From positions 1 through 64,000 of the forward strand of contig NZ_MVBK01000099.1 of assembly GCF_002000365.1 (NCBI RefSeq): DNA of 64,000 nt. Direction: 5' to 3'. The position numbers and the translations under genes were made by a program. The notes below the pieces were generated by a model, which saw only the letters and a list, made by a program, of their open reading frames with translations, was not told the DNA's origin and made no database searches. This DNA is from Thioalkalivibrio denitrificans. GTDB lineage: Bacteria; Pseudomonadota; Gammaproteobacteria; Ectothiorhodospirales; Ectothiorhodospiraceae. Shown here one piece after another: positions 10,912-62,378 of the stretch (positions within the stretch are counted from its first letter, which is position 1; every line of letters begins with the position of its first letter).

Positions 10912-11075
10912 GATCGCACCTCATCAGGAATAAGCACGCCAGCCGCACTAGGCTTACCCGCCAAGTTCCGGACCAAGGGAAGAAGCAACCCACACCGTGA
11001 ACTTGATTATCTATCTGGTTAGTCAGGACAATCCGAGAGCAAACCTGACCGCCTAGACATGCTCAGCGCCCTTCC

Positions 11076-11290
11076 TTAAATCACCACACCCATTGCTGCC
11101 GGCGGACCGGTTACACCACGCCGCCCATCTACGCCGGAAGCCACAGTCGCGATCCACAACTCACTACCCTCATCCAGGGAGAGAAGCTCCTCGATTTCAC
11201 CAAATGACACCAATGCTCCCGAGAGTGAAGGATGTGCGATCCCCTGATCGTCCGGGTGATCTTCCTGACGCTCGAAAGAAGCATGTTGCC
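11076..11290 (-). pseudogene. degenerate Rnk/GreA-C-like protein, paralog of 52647-53150
   Basis: The minus strand reads ASFERQEDHPDDQGIAHPSL, then EIEELLSLDEGSELWIATV and a short end. This aligns with the intact protein at 53 kb: ASCVERPESHRDDKSWVNPRSL and DVVELLSMDDGSEARIELV. About 25 residues between the two blocks and the SPLG end domain are lost. The frame is open but the fold would be incomplete, so it is called a relic. The repeat at 11294-11357 lies directly upstream, as at the 53-kb copy. Confidence 0.55.
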
Positions 11291-11293
11291 TGA

Positions 11294-11357
11294 GCCTTAA
11301 GTCCACGCAAACACCCGGTAGCCATGGGCCCCAGGCGACATCCCTGTCACATCGGGG
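11294..11357 (-). repeat. 64-bp repeat, copy 1 (other copy at 53417-53478)
   Basis: Read on the minus strand, this stretch contains GGGATGTCGCCT and TTTGCGT and matches the region upstream of the intact paralog at 53 kb (44 of 64 positions in a hand alignment without gaps). In both places it precedes a member of the Rnk-like family, so it may be part of the old leader or of a longer duplicated unit. Confidence 0.55.
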
Positions 11358-11398
11358 TGCGACTCCGGCGTTCTGCCGGCTCCGGAAACCCTTCCGGC

Positions 11399-40059: not shown

Positions 40060-41928
40060 ATGGACATCGAACGCTTGGCGACTGCGGAGGCTTTCGGCTC
40101 GCTGGGCAGCGAAGCGCTGAAGGCACTGGTTGCGCATGGGACCGTGCGTCGCCTGCACGACGGGGACGAGCTCTTTCGTCGCGGCGATGCGGACAGAAAT
40201 CTGCTCTACATTCTCTCGGAAGGCCGTGTCGCGCTGAGTGACGGCAATGGCGCCATCACTACCTGCGACGCGGTCTCTCTCCTGGGCCTGTCAAGCTACT
40301 TCGACGACGAACCCTATTCACTCACGGTAACGGCCATCGGCTCCTGCCAAGTCATCGAGATTCCCTTGGATGCGGTACGCGAACTCGAGGTTCGGCACCC
40401 CGCTTTGGCCGACACACTCAGTCATGCGATCGCAGAACGCATCCGGGCCGGATCGACTCGCGCGCAATCTATTGCCACAGGCGTATTGTCTCGGCCCGCG
40501 CGCGGCGCGATGACCACTCCGCTCACGTTCCTGCGCACCGATGCGAGCCTGGGCGAGGCCCTGCGACTCATGGAGACGCGGCGCATCGGCAGTCTCGGTG
40601 TGCTGGACGAACAGGACCGGCTGATCGGTCTCGCCACGGTGGCCAGCGTGGCGCACGCCTCGGTGATCGAGGGCCTGCCCTCAGACGCGCCTCTGATTCG
40701 GGCGGCGGCGTCTGTGCCACACATCACACCGGACACGCCGCTGTGGGAAGCGGAGGAGATCCAAGTCCGGGAGGCGGTGAAGCACTTGGTGGTCATGGAG
40801 GGCGAACGGCCGGTTGGGATGCTCTCCCAGACCAACATCCTGGACGCGGTGCGCGCCGGGCACGCAATCGCGCGGCACCGCGTCCATCACGCCGGCGGAA
40901 TGGACGATCTGCGTGCCCTGGTGGCCGAGGTGCCGCATGTGGCCAGTGATGCCCGCGAGGGCAGCCGGGACGCCAGTCGTGCCGTCTCTCTGCTGAGCGA
41001 GTACCACCTGCAGTTGCAGCGCCGTTGCGTCGAACTCGTGCTGGATGAGTTGGCGAACCGCGGCCTGGGCCCACCTCCGCGGCCTTACGCGCTGCTTGTC
41101 CTGGGTTCCCTCGCCCGGCAGGAGTCGCTGCTCAACCCGGACCAGGACAACGCCATCATCATCGCCGACGCCCGCCCCGGCGAGGCTGACTCGCGCCCGC
41201 TGGACGACGATGAACAACACTGGTTCGAGACGTTTACGGATCTGCTCAACCGGCGCCTCGACGAGATCGGCTACGAGTGGTGCCGGGGCGACATCATGGC
41301 GCGCAACCCGTACTACCGCCGCTGCCTGATGGACTGGTGCAGGCAGATCCGACACATGGCGCACTACCCCAACCTGAAGGCGGCACGCTGGAGCAACATC
41401 TTCCTCGACTTCGAGCTGCTCTACGGAGACGCCACGCTGGTGGAAGCGCTGTGGCGGGAAATCTTCTCGGTACTCGGCGAACACGACCGGCTGCTGCATT
41501 TCATGGCTGGCGACGATGCCGAGGGACAGGCGGCTCTCGGCATGTTCAACCGCCTGGTGACTTCCGACCGCGAGGAGGGCAAAGGCCGGGTGGACGTGAA
41601 GCGCAACGGGCTTCGCATCATCGCCAACGGCGCACGCATCTATGCTCTGGCGAGCGGCGTGCGCGAGACCAACACCGTTGCCCGGCTGCGGGGCCTGCGT
41701 CGGGAGGGAGTGCTCTCGGCGGACAAGGTGGCCTCGGTGATCGCGGCCCACGAGAGCCTGCTGGACCTGCTGCTCACGCACCAGCTCGCGCAGCACGACG
41801 GCGGCCACCCACCCGACAAGTACATCGATCCGCGCAATCTCGACGACATGGCCCTGCAGTCGCTGATCAGCAGCATGCGCGCCATCAAGCGTTTCCAGGA
41901 TCGCGTGCAGGGCGTGTTCGGACTCTGA
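40060..41928 (+). CDS. cNMP-binding / CBS / DUF294 nucleotidyltransferase-like protein
   Basis: 622 residues (ATG at 40060 preceded by GGAAGGCGGC; an ATG at 39964 is in frame). Order: a cyclic-nucleotide-binding domain (about 5-115: DGDELFRRGDADRNLLYILSEGRVAL), a CBS pair (about 150-270), then a DUF294 nucleotidyltransferase domain with the GlnD-like motif LGSLARQESLLNPDQDNAIII (NPDQD for metal), and the DUF294 C-terminal helical domain. Proteins of this type stand beside symporters and probably modify or regulate the carrier or sensor. The second copy follows after 2 nt. Confidence 0.93.
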   Translation: MDIERLATAEAFGSLGSEALKALVAHGTVRRLHDGDELFRRGDADRNLLYILSEGRVALSDGNGAITTCDAVSLLGLSSYFDDEPYSLTVTAIGSCQVIEIPLDAVRELEVRHPALADTLSHAIAERIRAGSTRAQSIATGVLSRPARGAMTTPLTFLRTDASLGEALRLMETRRIGSLGVLDEQDRLIGLATVASVAHASVIEGLPSDAPLIRAAASVPHITPDTPLWEAEEIQVREAVKHLVVMEGERPVGMLSQTNILDAVRAGHAIARHRVHHAGGMDDLRALVAEVPHVASDAREGSRDASRAVSLLSEYHLQLQRRCVELVLDELANRGLGPPPRPYALLVLGSLARQESLLNPDQDNAIIIADARPGEADSRPLDDDEQHWFETFTDLLNRRLDEIGYEWCRGDIMARNPYYRRCLMDWCRQIRHMAHYPNLKAARWSNIFLDFELLYGDATLVEALWREIFSVLGEHDRLLHFMAGDDAEGQAALGMFNRLVTSDREEGKGRVDVKRNGLRIIANGARIYALASGVRETNTVARLRGLRREGVLSADKVASVIAAHESLLDLLLTHQLAQHDGGHPPDKYIDPRNLDDMALQSLISSMRAIKRFQDRVQGVFGL

Positions 41929-41930
41929 CC

Positions 41931-43427
41931 ATGACCGGGCAGCGAGTCGACATGGCTCCACTGCAAACCGACGTGGCCCTCTTTGGCGAGCGCGTCGATG
42001 ACGCCATGGAAGGTCCGCCTCCGCTGGTGGCGGAGACGGTTTCTTGCCGTGACCTTGTCGCCACGCTTGCCCAGGCGGATGCCAGCTGCGCGATCATCAT
42101 TGACCATCGACGGACACCCCGTGGCATCGTGACTGAACAGGACATCGTCCGCAGGGCCGCCTACGCCGTGGTTGGCGGGGAACCCTGCGTGCGCATCATG
42201 ACCTCTCCCGTGCACACCGTTACGTGCGGCGACCCGCTCTACCGTGCCGTGGGCCGGATGCTGGAACTGGGTCTGAGACGCACGCCGGTCCTGGACGTGG
42301 AGGGCCGCGTATGCGGCCTGCTCGACCTGAGCAGGGCATTGCCGCGGGTCTGCGGGCGCGTCCTGCACCACTTTCGCGGGCTTGGCGGCAGCGGCGACGA
42401 CGACCCGCAGGCCGCCAGGGCAATTCGGGAGGCGCAGGCACCCCTGATCGAGGAGTTGCTGGCCCGACAGGCTGATGCCCACGAGATTCAGGCATTGCTT
42501 ACGCGCCTCAACGACGACATCTACATCCGCCTGGCCGACCGACGCATCGCCCTGCTCGAGTCACAGGGCCACGGCCGCGCGCCGGCGGATTTTTGCCTGC
42601 TGCTGATGGGTTCCGGCGGTCGCGCGGAGAACTACCTCGCTCCCGATCAGGATCACGGACTGGTCCTGGCCGACTACCCCGATGCGGACCACGACTGGAT
42701 CGATGGCTGGTTTCAGCGTTTCAGCGAGGGCCTGATTGAGGACCTGGAACTGGCCGGCTTTCCCCGCGATGTGGGCCATGTGATGTGCATCAACCCCCTA
42801 TGGAGAAAGACCCTGAGCCAATGGCGGACTCAGATCCGGATCTGGGCGCGCACCTTGGCGACCGTGAGCATCCGCCTGGGCGATGTCTTCTACGACTTCC
42901 GGCCCGTCTCCGGGAATCTGCAGCTTGGCCTTGAACTGCGCGCAAGCCTGCAGGAACTCGCGGCCGCCACGCCCTCGCTGCTGCGCGCCATGGTCGACGA
43001 GCACCGTGATCACGGTGTCGGTCTCGGCCTGTTCGGGCGGTTCGTCACCATGGAGCGCGGCAGCGCGCATCATGGCCACATCAATCTCAAACACACCGCG
43101 ATCCTGCCCCTGATCACCGCCGTTCGGGTGCTGGCCCTCAAGCACCGCGTCGCCGTGACGGGTACGCTGGCGCGTCTGGAGGCGCTGCGTGATCTCGAGG
43201 TCATCGACCTGGCAAGGTTCGACAGCCTGAAACGGGCCCACGGTACCCTTTCGTCTCTGGTACTGCGCCACCAACTCGCCCAGTTGCACGCCGGCGAGAC
43301 ACCGGACTACTACGTTCATCCCGGCGAACTCGACCGCTCACAGGTACGCAGTCTCAGACGCGCGATGAGAAGCGTGCGTCGCCTGCGCGATCAGGTGCGC
43401 ACGGACATCACCGGGCAGGTGTTCTGA
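41931..43427 (+). CDS. CBS / DUF294 nucleotidyltransferase-like protein, second copy
   Basis: 498 residues. It lacks the cNMP domain of its upstream neighbour but keeps a CBS pair (about 30-150: [55 protein letters not shown]...LRRTPVLDV) and the DUF294 part: [26 protein letters not shown], with the PDQDH metal motif. The C-terminal helical domain ([19 protein letters not shown]) matches. The ATG lies 2 nt after the previous stop and its stop overlaps the next start, so it is one operon of three. Confidence 0.93.
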
Positions 43428-45655
43428 TGAGACTGCAGATCACGGGCATGAAATGGAGAAGCAGCGGGCGGAATAACGACGACATGCCCCGTCATCAGTC
43501 ACGAACGCACGAACGCACAGACACGTCGGGATCCGGGAGTGTGCACCACCCCGGGATCCCGGGCGCGGTGGCCCGTCGCCTGATGTTCTGGGCCCCGGCG
43601 ATGGTGCTGACGCTGCTCATCGTGGCCGTTCTAGGCACCCTGGCCGCGCTGAGCCTCCAGGCGCTGCCGGAAGGCTCCGACCCGACTTCCCTGGTGGCCG
43701 CCTTCGGCATCGGCGCCCTCGTACTGTTGGGCGCTGCAATAGGCATCTGGCTGCTGCTGGACGCCACGATCATGCGTTCCCTCGCGGCACTCGCCCGCGG
43801 CACGTCCATTCTGACCCACTCCGACCCGGGCCACGAACTGGAACTGCCCCGCATCCACTTGCTCGGCAAGCTGCCCGAGCGCATACACACCCTGGCTCGG
43901 CATCTCCACGAGGCACGCTGCGAGGTGGCCAAGACCCTGACCTGCGGCGCACAGGACATCGAAGGGCAGAAGGACCGCCTGGAGATCGTGCTTCGGGAGA
44001 TCCGGGAAGGGGTCATCGTCAGCGATGCGCACGGGCGCATCCTGCTCTACAACCCGGCCGCCCGCACGATCCTGCGCAGCGAGTCCCTGGGCCTGGGTCG
44101 TTCCATCTACGAGTTGCTCAACCGCTCGGTGATCGATCATTCCCTGGACGTGCTGCACCATCGGCTGGCCCGGGCCGATGATGACGCCGGCCCGGAACAG
44201 GGTACCGAGTTTGTCTGCGCCACGATCGACGACGGCATCCTTCTGCGCTGCAAGATGAGTCTGATGTCTTCAACGAGCCCGCTGCGCTCCGCCTTCGTTG
44301 TGACCTTGGAGGACATCACGCACAGGATCGAGGATGCCGCACGTCGCGAGCACGCGCTGCGCTCGGCAATCGATGCGCTGCGCTTGCCACTGGCGACGCT
44401 CTCCGCGGCCGCCGAGGGCCTCGCCGGACCACCGAAAGGACAGCACCTGCATGCAGAAACCCTGGTTCGAGAAACCCGGGAGTTGGGACGGCGTCTCGAG
44501 CATCTGGCCTTTCAAAGCCGACGGGCCCTCTCCACGCCGTGGACCATGGCCGACGTCAGCAGCGCCGACCTGATCGCCAGCGTCCGGCGCCGCCATCCCG
44601 ACGGGCTGCCGCGCATCAGCGTGGCAGGCTCCCCCTGTTGGCTGCGCGCCGAGGGTCATTCCGTCGCCTTGGTGCTCGAACACCTGCTGCGCCGGTTGTG
44701 CGGGAGCCGGGGTGTGGAGACGGTGACGATCGAGGCGCGGCCATGCGACGGCCGGGTCTGCCTCGGGATCGCGTGGCACGGATGGCCGGTACCGGAGGAG
44801 ACCCTGGAACAGTGGCTGGACGAGGAACTGCCCGAGGCGGGCGGGGAGGCCACAATGCGCGGCATTCTCGAACGTCATCACGGCGCGTTGCACAACCGGC
44901 CCGGCGGTCCGGGGCGTGCCGAGATGCAGATTGCCCTGCCGGGTGCGCGCCGGCGGTGGGAGGCCCCGCAGGAGCGGGTGCAGCCCCGGCCCGAGTTCTA
45001 CGACTTCTCGCTTGCGGACCAGGCCGCCAACCAGGGAGCCCACCTGGACCGTCCCCTGGAGGAACTCTCCTACGTGATCTTCGACACTGAAACCACCGGG
45101 CTCGCGCCCGCGCAAGGCGACGAGATCGTCTCCATCGCCGGCGTGCGCCTGCTAAACGGCCGCCTGCTCCAGAGCGAGCGCTTCGATCAACTGGTCAACC
45201 CGGGACGGCCCATCCCGAGGGCCTCCACACGGATCCACGGCATACGCGATGACATGGTCTCCGACAAGCCCGCAATCGAGGAGGTCCTGCCCAGGTTCAG
45301 GGCATTTGTAGGCGATGCGGTACTGGTGGCTCACAACGCCGCGTTTGACATGAAGTTCATACGTCTCAAGGAGGAACGCTGTGGCGCGCGATTTGATAAT
45401 CCGGTACTCGACACGCTGCTGCTGTCGGTGTTTCTCCACGACCATACGCCCGCCCACACCCTCGAGGCCACCGCCCGGCGCCTGGGCGCGGTACTGATCG
45501 CTCAGCACACGGCGCTGGGCGATGCGCTGGTCACCGCCCAGATCTTCGCTCGGATGCTGCCGCTCCTGCGCGAGCGCGGAATCCATACCCTGCGGGATGC
45601 GCTCGAGGCCTCAGAGCGGATCGTCGAGGTACGTCGAAGGCAGGCGCGATTCTAA
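43427..45655 (+). CDS. membrane sensor: PAS, degenerate kinase and DnaQ-type exonuclease fusion
   Basis: 742 residues. Two N-terminal helices (about 53-75 and 92-112), a HAMP-like linker, a PAS domain (about 183-300: [32 protein letters not shown]), then a kinase-like part where HisKA reads [12 protein letters not shown]: the His of the H-box (HELRTPL) is replaced by Asp, and no ATP-binding G-boxes are evident. The C-terminal about 180 residues are a DEDD exonuclease: [37 protein letters not shown], and the [11 protein letters not shown] end. It probably senses a signal and acts through its nuclease or scaffold. Seen in acetate-symporter loci elsewhere. Confidence 0.9.
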
Positions 45656-46146: not shown

Positions 46147-46677
46147 ATGGCATATGTACTGGAGCAAGTCCTGTTGAAACCGAATGACGCGGAATATCCG
46201 CCACAACCCGAGCGGGCGATGAATCTGTCCGACCTGCCGAATGCGCGCATCGACGCGATCAGCAGCGGGTTTCGTATACTGGCTGAGAACGAGATCGCCC
46301 TCCGGCAGGCCGCCGCGCGACTACATGCCTATTCCGCCTGCCCATTGAAAGCATCCCCACCCTCGATCATCTTCGCCCGGGAACCGGTGGAGTCAGAACC
46401 GATCATGCGGGTCGTGGTGCATGCACCGCTCTGGACTCTGCACGGGCTGCGGAAGTGTTTCCAGGAAAGAGGGGCACGCATCATCGCCACCGGTTACAAC
46501 GAGGAGGACTGGAGCCTCCACATGCTGGCGCCGATCTCCGGGCTGCTCGGGTGCTACGATGAGGTATCGGAACTCCATGGGGACACTGCAACCATCAACA
46601 TGACGCTGAGCCACTACACGCCAGTGGAGACTACCACTCTCGAACCGCGCGCGAAGGCGGAGGTGATGCACGGATGA
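46147..46677 (+). CDS. stand-alone EF-G domain IV/V-like protein (1)
   Basis: 176 residues (MAYVLEQVLL...). From about residue 35 the protein follows the end of domain IV and all of domain V of elongation factor G: SGFRILAENEIALRQAAARL, then EPIMRVVVHAPLWTLHGLRKCFQERGARI, and MLAPISGLLGCYDEVSELHGDTATINM, TLSHYTPV. These match EF-G EPIMxVEVxxP, RRGxI, PLxxMFGYxxxLR and GxAxxxMxFxHYxPV in order. There is no GTPase domain. It might bind the ribosome near the A site or L11 region as EF-G does; that is inference. A second copy is at 54759. Confidence 0.8.
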   Translation: MAYVLEQVLLKPNDAEYPPQPERAMNLSDLPNARIDAISSGFRILAENEIALRQAAARLHAYSACPLKASPPSIIFAREPVESEPIMRVVVHAPLWTLHGLRKCFQERGARIIATGYNEEDWSLHMLAPISGLLGCYDEVSELHGDTATINMTLSHYTPVETTTLEPRAKAEVMHG

Positions 46678-47371: not shown

Positions 47372-47395
47372 GCCGGACGCGGCTTCGCGTCCGGC
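47372..47395 (+). promoter_or_regulatory. leader hairpin of Rnk-like gene 1
   Basis: GCCGGACGCG, loop GCTT, CGCGTCCGGC: a perfect 10-bp stem ending 62 nt before the ATG at 47458. The identical arms occur at 53222-53245 (loop TGCA) before Rnk-like gene 2. It could be a leader attenuator or protein-binding site; alternatively a terminator of an upstream transcript. Confidence 0.55.
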
Positions 47396-47457: not shown

Positions 47458-47901
47458 ATGTCTGAACGATTCACGGAGCTGAAGAACCAGGTGCTTCAGC
47501 AGTTTGAACAGTACTACCTGCATACCCACCTCGGCCTCTCGCTCGGCCCCCAGGAACTGGCATCCATACTGGCGAAGCTGGAGAACCTGGACGAAACCGA
47601 CGCGGCGCCGGCCAACCAGTACCCGGAGAGAGTCCGCATCGGATCCCGAGTGAGACTGCTCGATCTGCAGGACAACAGCGAAGCGGAAATCGAGCTGGTG
47701 CTTCCCGTGGACAGCGCGCCACCCAGAGGCCGAATATCCATCTTCTCGCCGCTGGGGGCCTCCATCCTCGGGTTGGAGCCCGCGGAATACGCCGAAGTCC
47801 GATTTCTGGGGCGGCCGCTTCGCTACCTCGTGCTCGAGGTTCTCCCTCCCGAAGCGCGCCGGCACAGACACGCGCCCGCGGTACAGTCGGTCGCCCCCTG
47901 A
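47458..47901 (+). CDS. Rnk/GreA-C-like protein (1)
   Basis: 147 residues. The C-terminal half (about 60-135) is the GreA/GreB C-terminal (FKBP-like) fold used by Rnk: VRIGSRVRLLDLQDNSEAEIELV, then RGRISIFSPLGASILGL, and FLGRPLRYLVLEVL. The short helical N-terminus (LKNQVLQQFEQYY...) could take the place of the coiled coil that reaches into the RNA polymerase channel, but it lacks the paired acidic tip seen in GreA. SD: GGAGGGG. Rnk binds RNA polymerase without cleavage activity; that role is plausible here. Confidence 0.85.
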   Translation: MSERFTELKNQVLQQFEQYYLHTHLGLSLGPQELASILAKLENLDETDAAPANQYPERVRIGSRVRLLDLQDNSEAEIELVLPVDSAPPRGRISIFSPLGASILGLEPAEYAEVRFLGRPLRYLVLEVLPPEARRHRHAPAVQSVAP

Positions 47902-48054: not shown

Positions 48055-48150
48055 ATGAGTAAGGAGAAACCGAAGAAGAAGGCCCAAAAGAGTCTAAAGG
48101 AACGACGCAAGGAAAAGCGTGAGCGTCGGGATGAGCAAGATACCGACTGA
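48055..48150 (+). CDS. 31-residue lysine/arginine-rich peptide
   Basis: Sequence MSKEKPKKKAQKSLKERRKEK... ends in DEQDTD. CAGGAG lies 6-7 nt before the ATG, a good SD. It is nearly all charged residues and would be a small nucleic-acid- or protein-binding peptide. Similar short KEKRKEK-rich peptides occur in other gammaproteobacteria, as far as I recall; function unknown. Confidence 0.6.
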   Translation: MSKEKPKKKAQKSLKERRKEKRERRDEQDTD

Positions 48151-51297: not shown

Positions 51298-52659
51298 TCA
51301 GGCAGGCGTCGGCCAGTCCGCGTCCCTGGCCTCGCACTGGGCAATGCCGCGCACGGACAGGGTCACGCTCCACCGCTGCGCCCTTGCCACCGGATCGCCC
51401 GGAACGGTGCACACCACGAGCAAGGTATAACTGTGCTGTCTCTCGATCTCATGCACCAGAACCCCGTTCTGGACCTCCTCATCATTCGTCTGCGCAAACA
51501 GACGATTCTGCCCACCTTCGATCAATTCGCACAGGGGCTCCAGGTCAAGCCCCAATACCTCCTGGATCTGGTCCTGGCCCAATGCCTTCGACTCCAGAGT
51601 CAATCGCGTCCTGTAGAGGACGGCCTGCATCTCCTCACCGGTCTGACCCCTCCCTGCGTTGCGTTTGACGTTGTCCGGGAGACGCGCCGGAGGTGAGTAA
51701 TCGAACCACACCAGTTGCGCACCCATCTCCTCACCGGTCAGCGGCTTCAGGATACGCGTCCTCGCCAGAGGCCTTCCCTTGCGTACCCACCCCGTAATCC
51801 GGTTCACCATCTCGTCATGCAGATAATCCCGAAGCGCATGAACCAGGGCGATCATGAGCAGCAGCGTGATTGTCAGCCTGTGTGCAGCCCTGAATGTGTG
51901 GAACAAGAGCACAGTGAACAGGGTCATGATCACCATCGTATAAAGCGCCTTCACTGTCCTGTGCGTGGTACGCCATAACTCGGTGGTTCGGGTCTTCATG
52001 ACAACCGGGTATTGCAGCAACTTGTGGTACATCGCCATCCGGTTCCAGACTTGGGTCGGCGAACCTCGGAGATCCGCCAGGTATCCCTTCCGCTCCCTGT
52101 ATTGGCGCTCCGCATCCAGATAGGCTCGCACGCGTTCGCTGTCGAGTTGCCCGACGTCGCTATATTTCGCCTTACTCGCGCACTCCAGGAAGAACTGTTC
52201 CGAGTACCAGGAAAAATAGATGTCCATTCGTCTGAAGTATGACAGCTGCGCCGTGCTCTCCGGGGGAGACTGCCGAAGCCTGCGCGCGAGGTTTTCGCTG
52301 AGTTTCAGCGCACGCCTCACGATCTCCTCGGGATTCTCGCTGTCCTCGAATCGCTGACGAAGCTGATCCATGGAGGCCTGGTAACGGGACAGCCACGTGC
52401 CGCATAGCACTTCGTAATACGGCGACAGCAGAGAAATTGACGAATCCGCCAGACTCGCCTTGTCCTCGGCAGGCAGGCCGAGCAACCGAAAGCCGTGATG
52501 CCAGTGCCCCGGCAACGCCCTCGTCCCGCCGAGAGCGCGTTCGAGAGACGCACGATCATGAGGCGTGAACACGTAGAGCGTGATCTCATGCTCGCCCGCC
52601 TTCTTCAGGGCTCGCTCAAGCTGGATGCCATACTTTCCCTTGCGTCTCAGCGTGAACAC
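51298..52659 (-). CDS. unassigned 453-residue membrane protein
   Basis: I do not recognise this protein. The N-terminal about 210 residues are hydrophilic (YVFTPHDRASLERALGG, YFSWYSEQFFLECASKAKY). Two hydrophobic helices lie about 240-285 (ALYTMVIMTLFTVLLFHTF; LTITLLLMIALVHALRDYL), then a cytoplasmic-type part with RKGRPLARTRILKPLTGEEMGAQLVWFDY and an acidic middle. It ends in CEARDADWPTPA. Its start overlaps the Rnk-like gene 2 stop by 13 nt, so it is coupled to it. A copy of its last 50 nt lies at 48252. Confidence 0.6.
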   Translation of the reverse strand: MFTLRRKGKYGIQLERALKKAGEHEITLYVFTPHDRASLERALGGTRALPGHWHHGFRLLGLPAEDKASLADSSISLLSPYYEVLCGTWLSRYQASMDQLRQRFEDSENPEEIVRRALKLSENLARRLRQSPPESTAQLSYFRRMDIYFSWYSEQFFLECASKAKYSDVGQLDSERVRAYLDAERQYRERKGYLADLRGSPTQVWNRMAMYHKLLQYPVVMKTRTTELWRTTHRTVKALYTMVIMTLFTVLLFHTFRAAHRLTITLLLMIALVHALRDYLHDEMVNRITGWVRKGRPLARTRILKPLTGEEMGAQLVWFDYSPPARLPDNVKRNAGRGQTGEEMQAVLYRTRLTLESKALGQDQIQEVLGLDLEPLCELIEGGQNRLFAQTNDEEVQNGVLVHEIERQHSYTLLVVCTVPGDPVARAQRWSVTLSVRGIAQCEARDADWPTPA

Positions 52660-53150
52660 CGCACAACCCCTCGTGACGCCGGAACCCCTCCAGGGGAGCG
52701 CGGCGCCTGCCCTTGAAGTGCCCGTCCAGCCTCCCTCTTCCGGGGCTTCGATGCACGCCTTGCCGCTGTGGCGTCCCTCGCTCGCCAGAGAACCCGAAGT
52801 ATCAGGAACCTCATCCGGCGCCCCATGAACCGGACCTCCACCAGTTCCGCCGGCCGCCTGCCCACAAGCACACTCCCCAGCGGGGACGTCAGCGTGGCAG
52901 TTCCAGGTCGATAACCGTCGGCATCCGACTCTACGAGTTCGATTCGTGCCTCGCTGCCGTCGTCCATGGATAGAAGCTCCACGACGTCACCCGTTGCCAA
53001 CCCCATCATGGCGGGATCCTCCGGTGCCTGCGTCTGAAGACCGGTCAGGATCCGCGAAAGATCGACCAACCCTTCCAGGGAACGAGGATTCACCCAACTC
53101 TTGTCGTCACGGTGACTTTCCGGACGTTCAACACAACTTGCCTTCAACAT
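52647..53150 (-). CDS. Rnk/GreA-C-like protein (2)
   Basis: 167 residues (MLKASCVERPE...; frames are open to 53249). The C-terminal domain fits Rnk/GreA-C: GDVVELLSMDDGSEARIELV, PGTATLTSPLGSVLVGRRPAELVEVRFMGRRMRFLILRVL. It lacks a coiled coil. A basic C-terminal tail (about 25 residues: RRASKPRKREAGRAL) follows. The hairpin at 53222-53245, identical in its arms to that before gene 1, lies 71 nt upstream of the ATG. It is coupled with the 453-residue membrane protein. Confidence 0.75.
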   Translation of the reverse strand: MLKASCVERPESHRDDKSWVNPRSLEGLVDLSRILTGLQTQAPEDPAMMGLATGDVVELLSMDDGSEARIELVESDADGYRPGTATLTSPLGSVLVGRRPAELVEVRFMGRRMRFLILRVLWRARDATAARRASKPRKREAGRALQGQAPRSPGGVPASRGVVRCSR

Positions 53151-53221
53151 AGCCAAACTCGCACACAACGTGATCGCCCCGACAGGGGCGTCGACATCAA
53201 CTGATCCTGGATAGCAATCAG

Positions 53222-53245
53222 GCCGGACGCGTGCACGCGTCCGGC
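53222..53245 (-). promoter_or_regulatory. leader hairpin of Rnk-like gene 2
   Basis: GCCGGACGCG-TGCA-CGCGTCCGGC. Arms identical to 47372-47395, where the loop is GCTT. A further hairpin (GCCCC/GGGGC, 53174-53190 region) follows toward the gene. The position 71 nt before the ATG suits a leader element. Confidence 0.5.
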
Positions 53246-53416
53246 TCACGCCGGGCAGATGCCAGCTTCGGGGAAGAAATGGGAAAGGGAGGTGCCAGAC
53301 ATGTGTGAGAGCCTGCCTGTACTAAGGAGACCTGCGCGGCATGCGCGGCCCGCCGGGTCGATCCGCCAGATCTTATCTTGAACCTGGGTCCAACGCAAAC
53401 GGCCGGCCTCCGTCGG

Positions 53417-53527: not shown

Positions 53528-54232
53528 TCATCGGTCAGGAAATGGGTATGGAATACGCTCATTCCCAATATTGCTGCATCCAAGGGAAGCCATCGACGTG
53601 AGCAAACCACGGGCATCGTCCGCTTTCGCATTGTGGAAATGCGCCGGCAGATCGGCAACCCCATGCTCTCCAATGACCTTCCGGAGAACAGCTTTGAGGC
53701 GATCTGTGCATCGTTCCTCGACTGGCATGAGGGAGAGCGCTTCTAACACTCTCGACATACGCTCCTTCTCATTGGCCGGAATAAGACCGGCACGCGCAAG
53801 GGTAAACACAACATCAACAATGGGTATGGTCATTGCCTTCATGAGGTCCGGCCCTAATAGAACGGCAACAAGGTCTTCCCTATTGTGAGCAACGTCTCTA
53901 ATGAACCGGAACACCTGACCCATACCCACCATGCCCTCCCTCTCCAACTCACATGCGAGCAGGGCTCCCGTACTCGCCGCTCCATAAAGTCGAAACCCCC
54001 GCTCCATGGCACATCGGACCTCGGCTAAAGAAAGCCGTTGCTCCCTGTCCAGTACTCCGTCTATGACTCCAACCGCACACGGTGCAGTCAATGCATCAAG
54101 ATCTCCTTTCCTTAAAGGCGGACGGTAGTCTGCATCCAATATACTCCGGGCATCCTCGATGCGGAGACTCGGCCCCAGGAAAACGACCGGCGGTCTGGCG
54201 TTCCATCCTCCAGAGGCAGTCATAGAATCCAT
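53528..54232 (-). CDS. TfuA-like protein
   Basis: 234 residues from the ATG at 54232 (weak SD; in-frame alternative at 54223). The TfuA core is clear: VVFLGPSLRIEDA, YRPPLRKGDLDAL, VGVIDGVLDREQRLSLAEVRCAMERGFRLYGAASTGALLACELEREGMVGMGQVF, then EDLVAVL. In thioamidation, TfuA helps YcaO activate sulfur transfer to peptides (thiopeptides, McrA thioglycine). No YcaO or precursor peptide was found in this window, so its partner may lie elsewhere. It is divergent from EF-G-like gene 2. Confidence 0.85.
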   Translation of the reverse strand: MDSMTASGGWNARPPVVFLGPSLRIEDARSILDADYRPPLRKGDLDALTAPCAVGVIDGVLDREQRLSLAEVRCAMERGFRLYGAASTGALLACELEREGMVGMGQVFRFIRDVAHNREDLVAVLLGPDLMKAMTIPIVDVVFTLARAGLIPANEKERMSRVLEALSLMPVEERCTDRLKAVLRKVIGEHGVADLPAHFHNAKADDARGLLTSMASLGCSNIGNERIPYPFPDR

Positions 54233-54335
54233 ACGTCCCACACCGTTCGTGAGTTGAAAAGTACTCTGACGCGTCGAGCTTACTGGATATCTCAAGCACC
54301 GGGCTGCCATTCGCATCACGCCACCAGTACGCGCC

Positions 54336-54507
54336 TTGCTTTGTTTTTTTTTGAGCCTATAATCGACTGCTGATTGGATCAACTTGGTCTCATGTGCAAC
54401 ATGATTATGCTTAGTCCAAGCTCCCAGCACTGCCTTCACGACCGGCAGGACCATCATAGGCGTCGCACCATCCAGCCGTAGCGACGCCGGGGACCCCCTT
54501 CCCCGGC
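54336..54507 (+). promoter_or_regulatory. conserved leader of EF-G-like gene 2 (promoter plus hairpin)
   Basis: TTGCTT (54336-54341), 16 nt, TATAAT (54358-54363), then exactly 115 nt from the start of TATAAT to CAGCCGTA (54473-54480), 5 nt, and a hairpin GCCGGGG (54486-54492)/CCCCGGC (54501-54507). This is collinear with the leader of gene 1. The ATG is 252 nt after the hairpin. Confidence 0.65.
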
Positions 54508-54758
54508 AGTAACACCCAACCGATCTCAAGACTGCACGGCCGTGCCCACGTAAGACGCGGGTCGCGTAGGGCGCGGGTGTTGATACGTCATACACCTTGT
54601 TAGCAGACGTGCACGGACTGCGCCAAACGATGCGCGCCTAGACAGAAACCATGTCGTCCTGTCGCCCGTTCATGAACTCACTCGGTCACCCGGACTGCCT
54701 TTGCGGACCTTACAACTGTGGGGGCACAAGAAGCATGCGCTCGCAATGGACTTCTGCT

Positions 54759-55334
54759 ATGACCTACGTCCTCGAACAACACCTACTCTCCACACCCAGT
54801 CAAGCGGCGAACCAGATCATACCCATCCGCGTTCTGCTCCATGACACAGCAGGCGCACAAATTAACCAGGTGCAAAGGGGGTTTCGCATACTTGCCGTGG
54901 ACGAGAAGGCGTTACAACAGGCGGTCCTACTGCTCCGAACCGTATGCCCGATGCCATTGAGCACATCCGAACCGCTCATCATCTGTACCACAAAGCCCGT
55001 ACCCGCCGAACCAGTAATGACCATCATCATCACCACACCTACTGACTATCTTCAACCCATTCTGGCGCGTCTCCTCTCGCGCGGCGCTGTCCTGACTACG
55101 ATCGGATACGGATCCGGAGAGCGCCAGCTCTGCCTGAGCGGCCCGCTGTCCGGCGTGTTTGGCTGCCATAGCGAGTTAAATGAGATCTCAGAAGGTCGTG
55201 CGTCGATCGACATGAAATTTAGTCATTACAGCCCGCTGTCATCGGCTATGCCTGTGCCGTCTACTTCGAGCCATGAGGACACGTTGAGTATTCCCATCAG
55301 TGCCATCAATGGGGCCAACCATGAAGATCGTTGA
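54759..55334 (+). CDS. stand-alone EF-G domain IV/V-like protein (2)
   Basis: 191 residues (MTYVLEQHLL...), paralog of the protein at 46147. Core: GFRILAVDEKALQQAVLLL, AEPVMTIIITTPTDYLQPILARLLSRGAVLTTIGY, SGPLSGVFGCHSELNEISEGRASIDMKFSHYSPL. It has an extra tail of about 15 residues. The two copies keep the EPxM, RG, PLxGxFG(C)x and FSHYxP/LSHYTP blocks but share only a minority of other residues. No GTPase domain. Confidence 0.8.
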   Translation: MTYVLEQHLLSTPSQAANQIIPIRVLLHDTAGAQINQVQRGFRILAVDEKALQQAVLLLRTVCPMPLSTSEPLIICTTKPVPAEPVMTIIITTPTDYLQPILARLLSRGAVLTTIGYGSGERQLCLSGPLSGVFGCHSELNEISEGRASIDMKFSHYSPLSSAMPVPSTSSHEDTLSIPISAINGANHEDR

Positions 55335-56792: not shown

Positions 56793-57343
56793 CGTCTTGG
56801 ATTTCAGCCGAGGCCCGCAGCTTGGTGTGGGCTTCGGCTCAACTATTGAGCTCAAATCCACCCCGATTCTTCGGAACGACGGGCCTACACAAGGCTGAGC
56901 GGGCCTGACATTGAGCGCTGCGGCGGACGCCTATTCGCGCACCGTCGTAATGATTATGCAATGCCCTTGGAGATCGCGTATCGTTCGCCCTGTACCAACC
57001 CAAAATAGGGTCCACTCTTATTTTACGATAAGCCGCTTTCGTAAAATACGAATCGTAAAGACGCAAGGGGATGGCGGTTCCCGCTTGGCTTTGAAACGCA
57101 AACGGCTCTGCCGCGGGCGGGGAGGAGGAGGCATTTCGGTCGGTTCTGGGTCGCAGTGCGTGAGAGCCAATGTCCGCAAGGTGCGAGTGTGCATACCAGG
57201 ACGGTCCCAGAAATGGGACTGCACATCTGACATGAAAAGACCTTTTCCAACAGACGCTCCCATGCACACCATACTGTGCAAGGGGGTCTCGTCTACACTA
57301 GGCCCATACCGAGCGATTACGACTATCGAACCGGGGAGTTCAT
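56793..57343. other. intergenic with inverted repeats before the antitoxin gene
   Basis: TTTTACGA (57021-57028) and TCGTAAAA (57039-57046) are inverted; a further TCGTAAA lies at 57053-57059. A separate hairpin GTCCCA-GAAA-TGGGAC lies at 57204-57219. These could be operator sites for the antitoxin or debris. No gene was recognised. Confidence 0.45.
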
Positions 57344-57862
57344 ATGATACAGATCACGAACCCGCCCTCCGGACGGCCGGGCGGCATACGGCAAGGATCA
57401 AGGCCTGGGCGGCAAGGGGGACCGAGTTCAATTGCTGAGCTCGACTCCCTGGTCCGGGCGCTTATAACCGGGCGCCGCACCGAGAAATTCATAACGATCG
57501 ATGAACTCATTAAGGAGATGCGTAACGGGTTGTCGCCGGCCGTCGTCGAGCGCTTGAGATCGCGTTTCGCACTTACCCAATCCGAGGTTCTTAGTGTACT
57601 AGGCCTGTCTCGGCGAAGCTACCTGAAGCGCAAGGCAGAACGAAGACGACTCTCTCCTCTGCATTCCGATCGAGCATATCGGCTTTCGAAGGTCGGCGTG
57701 CATGCAGAGATTGTGTTTTCAGACGAGCAAATCGCGCATGACTGGCTTACTAGCTATATCGTCGCTTTGGGTTCCAAGCCGATTGAAGCCCTCGATACAG
57801 AACCCGGAATGACTCAAGTCGAGAATGTCCTTGGTCGTATCGAGGACGGCGTTTATAGTTGA
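57344..57862 (+). CDS. Xre/MbcA/ParS-type antitoxin (DUF2384)
   Basis: 172 residues. Disordered N-terminus (about 1-30, glycine/arginine-rich), then helices and a small HTH (about 65-95: LSPAVVERLRSRFALTQSEVLSVLGLSRRSYLKRKAERRRLSPLHSDRAYRLSKV) and the DUF2384 end, DEQIAHDWLTSYIVALGSKPIEAL. Antitoxins of this class usually precede a RES-domain toxin; none follows here. It may be orphaned, or its toxin has decayed. Confidence 0.85.
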   Translation: MIQITNPPSGRPGGIRQGSRPGRQGGPSSIAELDSLVRALITGRRTEKFITIDELIKEMRNGLSPAVVERLRSRFALTQSEVLSVLGLSRRSYLKRKAERRRLSPLHSDRAYRLSKVGVHAEIVFSDEQIAHDWLTSYIVALGSKPIEALDTEPGMTQVENVLGRIEDGVYS

Positions 57863-58105
57863 GATATTATGGGCAGAAAGCGTCGACAAGGAATTTCCAG
57901 GGTGGCCTAGACGGGTGATTCGTCCAATGATGAATCGCTTCTGGGATACAAGACGTCATACCAGTAGTCGGCGAGGACCGCTTCGCAGAGCTCTTTACGA
58001 CTGCTTCCACCCGAACTTGCCAATATTCAGTTCCCGAATGGCCATGGAATAGGTGGCCGAATGGGCGTGGAGTATGCCTCCTGCGATGCCGCCTAGGTTC
58101 TAGTT

Positions 58106-58351
58106 ATGAAAACACTACACGTTTCCCTGCCCGATTGCCTCACGGCGTTCATCCAGGAACAGGTCCGCCTGCGTGGCTATCGCACACCCAGCGAGTATGT
58201 GTGTGATCTTGTTCAGCGCGACCTGGACCGGCACAAGCTGCGCAGCCTGATGCTTGCCGGAGCCGGATCGGCACGCGCCATACCCGCCGACCGAGCCTAT
58301 TTCGACAGCCTACGCGTACGCGTGCGCAGAGGTACGAGGACAAGGCGCTGA
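58106..58351 (+). CDS. ParD-like antitoxin
   Basis: 81 residues, ribbon-helix-helix at the start (KTLHVSLPDCLTAFIQEQVRLRGYRTPSEYVCDLVQRDLDRH) followed by the ParD toxin-binding tail with the PADRAYFDSLRVRVRRG end. A ParE toxin gene should follow but is absent; the next codons after the stop give no ParE. Probably an orphan or broken pair. Confidence 0.85.
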   Translation: MKTLHVSLPDCLTAFIQEQVRLRGYRTPSEYVCDLVQRDLDRHKLRSLMLAGAGSARAIPADRAYFDSLRVRVRRGTRTRR

Positions 58352-58488
58352 AGGCAGAGATGAAAGCCCAGTTTCTGCCCGGCATATTCGAAACGACCAG
58401 GCATTGTTGACGGGCCTCGTGTCCGTAGCTTCGCCTAGCCACGACATTCAGGCCACCAGCAATTCACAGCCCACAGGCAAAGTGTGTA

Positions 58489-58776
58489 TCAACTGCCACG
58501 ATGGCGGGCGCGTGCCTCCATCCGCTTTATGCGTTCGTTGGAGCGTGCTACATGCTCCAGAGTGTCGTCTATAGCCCGTTCCGCTCTTGCAGTGGCGTGA
58601 ACTACGGCATCGAACAACGCATACCGGGCCTGCTCCTCGTCCCCATTCGGACAATCAAGCGCAGTTCGGCGAATGAACTCACTCAATGACAGACCCGCAT
58701 GCGTGGCATACCTGGCGAGCCGCGTATGCTCGGCGTGTGTCACACGAATCACAATCCGCTGATTTCTCCTGTGCAT
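58489..58776 (-). CDS. RHH protein, MobC-like mobilisation type
   Basis: 95 residues. RHH start: NQRIVIRVTHAEHTRLARYATHAGLSLSEFIRRTAL, then a charged helical tail (DAVVHATARAERAIDDTLEHVARS). This is the pattern of MobC/relaxosome accessory proteins or related DNA-binding RHH proteins. It suggests past plasmid or ICE content. No relaxase was seen in the window. Confidence 0.72.
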   Translation of the reverse strand: MHRRNQRIVIRVTHAEHTRLARYATHAGLSLSEFIRRTALDCPNGDEEQARYALFDAVVHATARAERAIDDTLEHVARSNERIKRMEARARHRGS

Positions 58777-58939
58777 ATCTCCTCCCGGTTCCGATCCAGT
58801 GGGAAGGCGCTTGAGTCATTATCCGCGCCTAAGGCCGTCAAGCCAAACCCCCGATGAATGGGAGACGCCGCCGTAGGATCATGGCTTTGGGCTGGGCCGC
58901 CTGAGACAGAGATCCTCGTCAGCGCCGCGAGTAGGGCAT

Positions 58940-59809
58940 CTACCGATTGGGCGATCCATACAACTCGCTGTATGCTTGGACTACGTCCGCCTTGCCGAAA
59001 CCCGGAACTACCGTATTTCCCTTTGAAAGCCCTTCAAAGTCCATACTAGTGAGCCGCTGCCTGACCTTCTCGCTTGCTGCCTTGAATAACATCCAATGTG
59101 TCGTTCGCTCGCAACGCGAAGGATCTGTCTCTCTCCTTGAATAATCCACGACTCCCTGTCGTGGCACCGCAAAGTGAAAATCTTCATCAAAGAACTTTTC
59201 GGCCGCACGCGTATTGTTGTATATCCGCGCCTTGAAATCTGGATGGCGCGACGGCGGCGGCGCATTAATTCTTAGATCGTCCAGTGTGCCATGCCGTCGG
59301 GTCCACACCTGAAACGTGCAGTTGACATGATACGGCCTTCCTTTAAATGAAAACGCATTCGATTCCAGAGTTGTATCCGATATGAGACGAAACCCGGGGG
59401 CTAAGTGTCGATGCACAGACCATTTTCGGAACAGCAGAGGCACGATGAATGCAATCGTGTCTGAAAACGTCCCGGCATGGTTGAAGAATTCAATGGCCAA
59501 CGCTGCCCTACGCCCGAAGGGTGGATTTCCAACGATAACAACATTGTCGTTGTCTCTGATCCCGATGTCCTGCGCTGTCACTTCAAGAAAGTTCGCGGTC
59601 ATCACACCCCGATATTTCGGATCAACATCGATACCCACCGCGGAACTCGGCAACTGCTTGAGGAAAGCCCCAGTGCCCGCAGAGGGCTCCAAGAACTTCA
59701 CGCATTGGCCGTAACCTAGTAGGGGTAACAACCGTGTCACGATATCGACACACGACTCTGCGACAGCATCAGATGTGTAGTATTGGTCAAGGCGTTGGGC
59801 ATCGGACAT
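58940..59809 (-). CDS. N6-adenine DNA methyltransferase-like protein
   Basis: 289 residues from the ATG at 59809 (MSDAQRLDQYYTSDAV); a TTG 15 nt upstream is in frame. Motif I for SAM: FLEPSAGTGAFLKQL; motif IV: VIVGNPPFGR (NPPF); order I to IV is as in gamma-class adenine methyltransferases. The C-terminal part (about 170-289) has no clear target-recognition family. No restriction gene flanks it, so it is an orphan methylase or phage-type. Confidence 0.85.
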   Translation of the reverse strand: MSDAQRLDQYYTSDAVAESCVDIVTRLLPLLGYGQCVKFLEPSAGTGAFLKQLPSSAVGIDVDPKYRGVMTANFLEVTAQDIGIRDNDNVVIVGNPPFGRRAALAIEFFNHAGTFSDTIAFIVPLLFRKWSVHRHLAPGFRLISDTTLESNAFSFKGRPYHVNCTFQVWTRRHGTLDDLRINAPPPSRHPDFKARIYNNTRAAEKFFDEDFHFAVPRQGVVDYSRRETDPSRCERTTHWMLFKAASEKVRQRLTSMDFEGLSKGNTVVPGFGKADVVQAYSELYGSPNR

Positions 59810-60332
59810 GCCCTGTATAGCCAATGCACAACAACTCTTGCATCGGACACGTCAAGAATCTGTCCTTCTCGCGCATCGAACTCCGTGATGGTGCAACACG
59901 CCGCTCGAACTGCTGAATCTGAAGGTGGTGAAATATCAGCTACTGCGCGGAGAATAATAGTCCGTCCCCGATGTCCAACGATTGACCGAGGTCGACCTGC
60001 GAGGGCCCAGGAGCGCTGTGAGATTTCGCTGGGAGTAGAAGGGGGCTCGGTATGTCGCCGCCGTGCCTTGGCGCGATCCTTTTCAGTCAACAGCGCCTAA
60101 CCAAACGATCCCTAAGCAACAGCAACCATTCCTTACTCCGCCGTCCATGGGATCCGTGTACCGCAGCCAGCACAAGCCAAGGCGGAACGTCCTGGGGCGC
60201 AGTTCCACACCCGTGACCGCCGCACAACCTCGCGCATGCACAGAAGTTGACGCGGTTTGACGTTGTAGGAGTCCCTTCGGCCGGCCGAACACCCTCCTCC
60301 ACCCTTAAAATCAATGGGTTAAGCAGTTATCA
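59810..60332. other. intergenic / uncertain ORF region
   Basis: A minus-strand frame 59737-60090 (TTG start) overlaps the methyltransferase start by about 70 nt and encodes an arginine-rich peptide with no known signature; I do not call it. The rest shows nothing. Confidence 0.4.
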
Positions 60333-60366
60333 TTTTGTCTCGTTCTGATCCCAGAACGAGACAAAA
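60333..60366. terminator. bidirectional terminator after serine recombinase
   Basis: TTTTGTCTCGTTCT (60333-60346), spacer GATCCC, AGAACGAGACAAAA (60353-60366): a perfect 14-bp inverted repeat with T/A runs on both sides. It lies 24 nt past the recombinase stop. It could alternatively be a recombination site. Confidence 0.8.
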
Positions 60367-60389
60367 CATTAATTGCAAGCTTTCCCGCA

Positions 60390-62084
60390 TCAGCCGACGC
60401 GCCTCTGATTGAGCGCGGACGAGGCCCCCTGCTCATCTTCGACGGGGATGCAGTCTACGGTCCACACTGTTGGACGACGGGCAGTACTTGTCAGCCTAAA
60501 CCGCAGAGTGATCAATGAGCCATCCATAGGTTCTGTGTTGGACGCTAGCGCCGACATGATGCCCGGGGACAGGCTTACTCGTACATCGGCCACATGACGG
60601 CTCCTCTTTCCCTCGAAGACGATTTCCGGAAATAAGCGGGCGAGTAAGGACCTGATCTCCGCAACCGGCCTGTTAGAGTCCCAAATCCTTGGGATCAGAT
60701 CTCTCGGATCTACCTCCAGTTGCCGTCGAACATTCTCCATATCGACCGGAACTCGCTCTTTCTCAAGCTCACTGAGCTTACGCAACAGACTCTGATGCTC
60801 CCGTCTCGCCTCCTCGTACTCATTCAGTAGCAGTTCATCCTCTCCTTCTTGGCGCCGTATCGCCTTCAGCAACCTGCCACATCCCCTCGCCGCTCTTTCG
60901 CATTCGAGCCTAGCTGCCTGTATTGCACTACCCACATCCTGTGTTAGCAATTGCTTAAGCCGCCTTCTGCGCTCCTCCAGGATCGGCCCTGTGATGATCG
61001 CATCGATCGCTTTTGTCAGTATATGCTCAAGCCCTGTCACCGACAGATAGCCCATTGGCCTTCGATCAATCCCCACACGGCGTGCTTGCCCACACTGCGC
61101 ACAGTACATGGCTTGGGCGTTCCCGCCGGTTGATATGGTCAACGTGCTGCCACATTGACCACATGAGACCAACCCTGCGAAACGGTGCTTTCCGCCCCCG
61201 TATCTCGATCGACTGATTCTTCCTTCGTTGCACAGGTACCAGATTTCATCGCTGACGAGCCTCAAGTGCGGCCTTTCAAATTCGCGGATCTCGGGATCGC
61301 GTTTTCTCCTTTTGACTTTCTCCTGACGGCCCTTGGATCCATGCCAACGGAACGTACCACGATAGATCGTGTTCCCAATCATCCGCCTGATCGTTGCTGG
61401 CCGCCAATATGCTGCTGCTTTTCGGGGACGAGGCGGTTCGACACCCTTTTCGTTAAGCTGCCTCGCGATTTCTCCATACGCTGTGCCTTTACTCCGCAAC
61501 TCATATATCTGCACCACGACTTTCGATTCTTCCGGATCAACCCGCCAGGCGGTTCCCAGGCGGTTGCCCTGATCGTCGAGCTGCCGCTCGTACTGATAGC
61601 CGTAAGGCGGGGTTGCGATCATGAATCCGCGCTCAAGCTGGCCTAACATTCCTCGAACGACCCGATGTTGCGTGTCTCGAATCGACTGCTGACTTATGAG
61701 TCCAACGAGACCGAAGGACAGCTGCCACTGCTGCTGACTTGTATCGAGACCATCCGCGGCCACAACCCGGACGCCGGTTTGCTCGATCCTCCGCTGAAGG
61801 TTAGCTAGCTGTACCGCGTCCCGCGATAGCCGACTAACTTCGTCGACTACCAGTAGGTCCAGTTCTCCGCGGTCCCACGCATCAACGAGCGCGAGGAATC
61901 CTTGTCGCTTAGAAAGGTGCTTATCTGTTCCTGATAGCGCGCCATCACTGAAAACCTGTACATCCCCATTCTCCAGCCCCAATCCCTGGATGACCTCTCG
62001 ACAGCGTCGAATCTGATCATCGATAGACGTCTGCCGCTGATTGTCGGTGGAATATCGCGCGTAGATCGCTATTTTCATTGACAT
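60390..62084 (-). CDS. large serine recombinase
   Basis: 564 residues. Resolvase domain (about 1-150): IAIYARYSTDNQRQTSIDDQIRRC with the catalytic Ser of ARYS, then VDEVSRLSRD (SRLSR). Recombinase domain (about 165-300: TPPYGYQYERQ, YGEIARQLNEKGV, YRGTFRWHG). Zinc ribbon: LVSCGQCGSTLTIS...YCAQCGQARR. A coiled region follows (about 385-470). It integrates or excises an element by serine chemistry. A small gene overlaps its start. A terminator lies downstream. Confidence 0.93.
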   Translation of the reverse strand: MSMKIAIYARYSTDNQRQTSIDDQIRRCREVIQGLGLENGDVQVFSDGALSGTDKHLSKRQGFLALVDAWDRGELDLLVVDEVSRLSRDAVQLANLQRRIEQTGVRVVAADGLDTSQQQWQLSFGLVGLISQQSIRDTQHRVVRGMLGQLERGFMIATPPYGYQYERQLDDQGNRLGTAWRVDPEESKVVVQIYELRSKGTAYGEIARQLNEKGVEPPRPRKAAAYWRPATIRRMIGNTIYRGTFRWHGSKGRQEKVKRRKRDPEIREFERPHLRLVSDEIWYLCNEGRISRSRYGGGKHRFAGLVSCGQCGSTLTISTGGNAQAMYCAQCGQARRVGIDRRPMGYLSVTGLEHILTKAIDAIITGPILEERRRRLKQLLTQDVGSAIQAARLECERAARGCGRLLKAIRRQEGEDELLLNEYEEARREHQSLLRKLSELEKERVPVDMENVRRQLEVDPRDLIPRIWDSNRPVAEIRSLLARLFPEIVFEGKRSRHVADVRVSLSPGIMSALASNTEPMDGSLITLRFRLTSTARRPTVWTVDCIPVEDEQGASSALNQRRVG

Positions 62085-62263
62085 TCATTCTCCCCCTTAG
62101 ATTGAAGTAAGGCGACGCGCTCATGATGCAACTGAATCTCGATCAAGAGATCGATCAACTCGTTGATTTCCCGAGGGAAACAGCCGGGCCCATCCCGGTG
62201 TTTTTCGCCGCCCGTCAATTGAATTAGCGAATCCGTCAGTCTTTCTTTCATTTTTTTCTCCAT
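62075..62263 (-). CDS. small protein preceding the serine recombinase
   Basis: 62 residues (MEKKMKERLTDSLIQLTGGEKHRDG...). It overlaps the recombinase start by 10 nt. The middle is PREINELIDLLIEIQLHHERV, a helix. It may be a recombination accessory factor (excisionase-like) by position; no signature is visible. An ATG 12 nt downstream (MKERL) is an alternative start. Confidence 0.6.
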   Translation of the reverse strand: MEKKMKERLTDSLIQLTGGEKHRDGPGCFPREINELIDLLIEIQLHHERVALLQSKGENECQ

Positions 62264-62378
62264 TTTTCGGTCAAGCCCGCCACCGATTGGCTACACCACT
62301 TACCAGCGGCGATCCAAAACCGCCGTTTCGAGCCCATGAATGCTGCTGGAATGGGTCTTGAAGCGTGAGACACATACT

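Follow-up and report, generated by a model that had tools for sequence, protein, structure and literature searches.

Stand-alone proteins with a domain III-like fold and EF-G domain V, encoded near Rnk-like genes in scattered gammaproteobacteria

Domain V of the elongation factor EF-G sits at the stalk base and the sarcin-ricin loop of the ribosome, and dormancy and ribosome maturation are under the control of mimics or occupants of the translation factor site, among them SBDS and hibernation factors (HPF, for example). To our knowledge, the characterised proteins that contain the pair of domains III and V all act on the ribosome. The nearest precedent known to us for a stand-alone bacterial protein of this kind is YigZ/IMPACT (UPF0029), whose domains have been likened to domains IV and V of EF-G. 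SBDS is, as far as we know, not found in bacteria, and we know of no Rnk protein described with an EF-G domain partner. Domain III of SBDS binds the sarcin-ricin loop and the P-stalk base like EF-G domain V, with no GTPase of its own (PMC6710477). On the transcription side, E. coli Rnk binds RNA polymerase in competition with Gre and DksA, and its purpose has been described as unknown (PMC4598747).

We analysed a stretch of 64,000 nt from Thioalkalivibrio denitrificans (contig NZ_MVBK01000099.1, hereafter the window), in which two open reading frames, EFGC1 (46147..46677, + strand, 176 aa) and EFGC2 (54759..55334, + strand, 191 aa), are present. In both, a domain III-like part (residues ~1-80) is followed by domain V, which spans residues 84-164 in EFGC1 (46396-46638) and residues 84-162 in EFGC2 (55008-55244); the C-terminal tail of EFGC2 is of low confidence. 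The sole Pfam match above cut-off (27.9 bits) in either protein is EFG_C (PF00679), found over the domain V residues with E 8e-8 and 32.6 bits in EFGC1 and with E 9.7e-15 and 54.8 bits in EFGC2. The proteins are 37% identical over 163 aa (E 6e-34) and by sequence are paralogues, as proposed in the initial annotation, which had named the EFG_C HMM search as a check on its reading of two stand-alone domain V proteins. That annotation had also regarded the GTPase domain and domains II-III as missing: the GTPase domain and domain II are indeed absent from both proteins (176 and 191 aa; Pfam), whereas a domain III-like part is present. The TypA_BipA model gave P0002 22.6 bits against a cut-off of 757 and did not match P0001, and neither window protein contains the BipA-type GTPase and C-terminal domains or reaches the full-length equivalog score. 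Neither UPF0029 nor DUF1949, the domains of YigZ/IMPACT, matched either window protein in Pfam up to E 10. PADLOC gave no match, so a reading as a known defence protein was dropped.

In the window genome, EFG_C occurs five times: in EFGC1, in EFGC2 and, on other contigs, within three open frames of 732, 680 and 605 aa. Since these three lie away from the window contig, neither EFGC1 nor EFGC2 is a piece of a neighbouring EF-G, and the initial annotation stands in that they are not copies broken off a nearby full-length EF-G. A fragment or pseudogene of a nearby EF-G was ruled out on the same grounds, the complete translational GTPases being on other contigs, and by the substitution pattern of EFGC1. 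Between EFGC1 and its copy in the congener G001, dS is 0.33 and dN 0.07, a ratio of 0.21; EFGC1 is therefore a maintained gene and is under purifying selection in this single pair from two congeneric genomes.

We determined the domain content of the family from profiles and fold models. A profile of the 13 family members found EF-G domain V as its best match among solved structures (E 9e-16), together with a weak second match in the same order, from profile positions 9-81 to EF-G 412-486 (domain III). Positions 41-166 of this profile covered BipA 353-479 contiguously (E 1.8e-10), and hhalign aligned family positions 42-168 to BipA 359-486 with a probability of 94%. The N-terminal half alone scored 24.6 against the EF-G domain III profile (E 4.5e-4, probability just 33%), and the maximum over 60 column shuffles of the same comparison was 18.3. 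AF2 run on one sequence gave a poor model (pLDDT 37); we used instead a model with three family members and zero EF-G sequences as input (pLDDT 63), which consists of two beta-alpha-beta-beta-alpha-beta (ferredoxin-like) units at residues 2-75 and 86-155. Both this model and the contiguous BipA match (41-166) show the domain III-like part leading straight into domain V with no domain IV between. Foldseek placed LepA, BipA and EF-G at the top; its alignments spanned 172-187 columns for LepA and BipA, and its rmsd across both domains was ~14 A, the domain orientation in the three-sequence model being uncertain. Comparison by VIA-align to EF-G, EF-2, LepA and BipA gave Z 13-14 and often an rmsd of 1.2-2.2 A over ~75 residues, in rows that span domain V alone and say nothing on the N-terminal half. 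The structure prediction proposed as a check thus upheld the domain V fold. It did not uphold the end of domain IV as an identity for the N-terminal half: domain III is the counterpart of residues 1-80, and the domain IV assignment was ruled out in its favour by the solved-structure profile, hhalign, the shuffles and the AF2 model. Domain V is certain in the EFGC proteins, and the domain III-like identity is well supported for the second half of that domain and moderately supported, on weaker evidence, for the first. These data point to a ferredoxin fold like that of domain III, continuing directly into domain V in the style of BipA and LepA, without G domain, domain II or domain IV.

BipA/TypA and LepA/EF4 resemble the EFGC proteins in that domain III runs directly into domain V, with contiguous matches by profile and by Foldseek, and in BipA domain V also has the same 'HYAP' end; the EFGC proteins differ in having no G domain, domain II or C-terminal domain and in grouping apart from both in the tree of domain V. 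EF-G (fusA) and its EF-G-like paralogues provide the best sequence match, in domain V, whereas the EFGC proteins contain no domains I, II and IV and have several EF-G-invariant charged residues replaced. With SBDS of archaea and eukaryotes the likeness is the missing GTPase and an EF-G domain V-like domain, which in SBDS docks at the stalk base and the sarcin-ricin loop (PMC6710477); SBDS, which works together with EFL1, has two further domains at its N-terminus, and we saw no sequence relation to EFGC. YigZ/IMPACT differs in its first domain, which in EFGC is III-like, and its characteristic domains are matched by neither EFGC1 nor EFGC2. Literature searches, mostly outside subscription journals, returned nothing relevant on stand-alone EFG_C proteins or on an EFG_C-GreA/GreB pairing, and the initial statement that no stand-alone family had been described agrees with them. 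The fold is known; the stand-alone III-V combination and the pairing with a Rnk-like gene appear undescribed. A bacterial family that keeps just domains III and V and has discarded the GTPase would offer a natural way to learn what these domains do on their own.

The genome survey, also suggested at the outset, yielded 13 stand-alone genes in 12 genomes from scattered gammaproteobacterial families, about 2% of the sampled genomes. The carriers are the window genome (G000, two copies), G001, G050, G055, G367, G461, G309, G495, G108, G414, G417 and G405, and include salt-loving and sulfur-oxidising bacteria, few in number. Within the class, the family was found in 6 of the 369 genomes sampled; two orders gave 4 of 54 and 2 of 11 genomes, and among 398 sampled genomes of the phylum it was found just in the window genome and G108. 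We excluded a match in G362, where the 163-aa open frame lies at the end of a contig, and eight weak matches in EF-G-length frames. A scan of genome contigs gave only a Thioalkalivibrio MAG and one further locus, which we took to be an ordinary EF-G. The patterns used found no viral relatives in IMG/VR. All plasmid tblastn matches were below 60% identity (21-38% among the matches listed), and among those listed no stand-alone relative stood out, the annotated ones being mostly fusA. The distribution is rare and patchy, and the searches may have overlooked more divergent members. All 13 members group as one clade (support 0.917) outside EF-G, BipA and LepA in the tree of domain V. The members are 171-192 aa long, contain no stops and conserve an N-terminal MxYVLEQ (YVLEQ-like) motif, 'GLRLLAENE', EPxM, PLxxLLG and SHYxP.

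Each window gene is accompanied by a gene for a protein with a GreA/GreB C-terminal domain. Rnk1 (47458..47901, + strand, 147 aa; PF01272 E 3.8e-13) lies 0.8 kb downstream of EFGC1 on the same strand, an order repeated in G001. Rnk2 (52647..53249, - strand, up to 200 aa; PF01272 E 3e-6, barely above cut-off) lies 1.5 kb upstream of EFGC2 in divergent orientation, with a TfuA-like gene between, and is 41% identical to Rnk1 over 98 aa. At these distances of 0.8 and 1.5 kb the EFGC and Rnk genes of the window do not form one tight operon, and a terminator-like stem is found at 47372-47395, between EFGC1 and Rnk1. Across the family, a Rnk-like gene is found within about 3 kb at 10 of the 13 loci (EFGC1, EFGC2, G001, G050, G055, G367, G461, G405, G417 and G495). 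Because a genome of about 3 Mb contains 2-5 PF01272 genes, which by our own arithmetic gives a chance of ~1% for one within 3 kb of a given locus, this number is far beyond chance; the estimate includes the same-genus pairs G000/G001 and G309/G495, and the conclusion holds when each is counted once. PF01272 is above cut-off in all five partners tested individually and at the partner positions in the per-genome counts. The partners share with Rnk this domain and a short N-terminus, and the closest NCBIfam model for Rnk1 and for the G050 and G495 partners is the Rnk equivalog NF004396, 'nucleoside diphosphate kinase regulator'. Against its cut-off of 109 bits, Rnk1 scored 42, the G055 partner 33 and the G050 partner 88, Rnk2 had no match, and the G495 partner alone passed (144). 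Since most of the partners tested fall under this cut-off, in which they differ from Rnk, we call them Rnk-like and not Rnk. Elsewhere in the window, a stretch at 11070-11381 (- strand), missed by PF01272, shows a resemblance to the Rnk2 C-terminal part (E 4e-6; 31% across 132 aligned columns) and is possibly a decayed Rnk-like gene.

The pairing of EFGC with Rnk-like genes suggests a so far undescribed system for the joint adjustment of protein and RNA synthesis, and it offers a handle on Rnk, an RNA-polymerase binder of function described as unknown (PMC4598747). From the fold, and by analogy, we tentatively propose, as the likeliest explanation though at less than even confidence, that the EFGC proteins act as GTPase-less modules on the factor site of the ribosome and that their partner is a Rnk-type protein of the RNA-polymerase channel. 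EFGC would dock on the large ribosomal subunit at its GTPase-associated centre, comprising the stalk base and the sarcin-ricin loop. With no GTPase to time its release, it could brake reversibly, keep the factor site occupied as a placeholder, or protect that site. The Rnk-like partner would bind RNA polymerase and displace Gre/DksA factors as E. coli Rnk does, and the pair would tune transcription and translation jointly, probably under stress or energy limitation. An extension of this model, which we regard as somewhat doubtful, would be a two- or three-gene stress module (EFGC, Rnk-like channel protein and a tiny basic protein described below) that adjusts ribosome and RNA polymerase together and in which EFGC represents a new class of factor-site occupant, derived from a translational GTPase by loss of its motor. 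Two features speak against docking at the ribosome. Residues that are invariant in the EF-G set and align to P0002 positions 104 (D), 109, 141 and 147 (R) are mostly exchanged in the family, and most members are not basic, with a pI of 5.5-7.0 (acidic to neutral, atypical for rRNA binders) in 9 of 13. The loss of these residues is not decisive, because the BipA and LepA sequences in the tree also lack the arginines at positions 141 and 147. Against the paired model stand also the three loci with no Rnk-like neighbour (G309, G108 and G414), the loose spacing of the genes in the window with its terminator-like stem, and the scores of most tested partners under the Rnk cut-off.

The same loss of EF-G-invariant charged residues would suit a protein that binds its Rnk-like partner or RNA polymerase and not the ribosome, the pair then being one transcription regulator or an RNA polymerase-ribosome bridge. 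Gene order points the same way in G050, G367, G461 and G405, where the Rnk-like gene is immediately upstream on the same strand with gaps of ~60-100 bp. We nevertheless consider this explanation rather unlikely, given that the III-V pair is a ribosome-binding architecture in characterised relatives, that EFGC occurs without a Rnk-like neighbour at three loci (G309, G108 and G414) and that a Rnk1 paralogue on contig C124 occurs without an EFGC gene.

An explanation unrelated to translation, in which the ferredoxin-like modules form a sensor or regulator of a membrane transport or stress function, draws on the MgtC-family genes that adjoin the stand-alone gene at four loci (G405, G108, G417 and G050; L099 3-641, - strand; L073 8359-9066, + strand; L098 about 1860-2306, - strand; L040 6308-7060, + strand). 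In G405 these genes form a run Rnk-EFGC-MgtC on one strand, and the window contains a UPF0126/Gly_transporter gene near EFGC2. MgtC was not found near the remaining nine stand-alone genes, however, and the domain V core motifs EPxM, PLxxxxG and SHYxP are kept and do not drift into a ligand site, and we judge this explanation improbable. That the genes are decaying remnants of EF-G, BipA or LepA genes, of which they cover only a part, can be dismissed as extremely improbable in view of the dN/dS ratio of EFGC1 against G001, the stop-free frames, the MxYVLEQ motif and narrow length range kept across scattered families, the single clade outside all three families, and the joining of domain III to domain V without domain IV.

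Returning to the factor-site model and its possible third component, a gene for a tiny basic protein (48055..48150, + strand, 31 aa, lysine/arginine-rich; MSKEKPKKKAQKSLKERRKEKRERRDEQDTD) lies 154 bp downstream of Rnk1. In several genomes the small gene is conserved downstream of a Rnk-like one. Homologues are found at six further loci, namely G001, G050, G055, G414, G461 and the locus of the Rnk1 paralogue on contig C124 (L113 3662-3757, - strand). None occurs in ~240 kb of other loci, the lone control match, L104, being the G055 locus again. Its dN/dS values are 0.02 and 0.12, from few sites, and the protein has no NCBIfam match. A fragment of a second neighbour, a 453-aa protein, is also found on C124 (L113 3293-3550). 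The complete gene (51298..52659, - strand) adjoins the Rnk2/EFGC2 region and encodes a protein with central membrane-like segments and no Pfam or NCBIfam match; in G414, a homologue of 74% identity is encoded 2.4 kb upstream of the EFGC gene. The TfuA-like protein (53528..54595, - strand; PF07812 E 1.3e-19) is divergently adjacent to EFGC2, an association not seen at other loci. Its best NCBIfam model, under cut-off, is the TfuA-related McrA-glycine thioamidation protein.

Upstream of EFGC1, the frame 43427-45655 (+ strand) encodes a protein that has a DnaQ-type exonuclease domain and matches PAS weakly, and it adjoins a CBS-DUF294 nucleotidyltransferase protein (41277-43427); counterparts of both are also found upstream of the EFGC1 copy in G001. 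The end of the window (57302-63998) appears by eye to be mobile-element-like, with a DNA methyltransferase-like frame, a serine recombinase-like frame (60393-62084) and an integrase-like frame (62340 on), and it contains a Pfam-supported Xre/MbcA/ParS antitoxin-like gene (57344-57862). In G309 and G495 (L072 and L101), the stand-alone gene lies near a glutamate dehydrogenase-like gene that is 81% identical between the two loci, and in G309 universal-stress-like proteins, identified by eye, are encoded nearby; these neighbours hint at a stress context.
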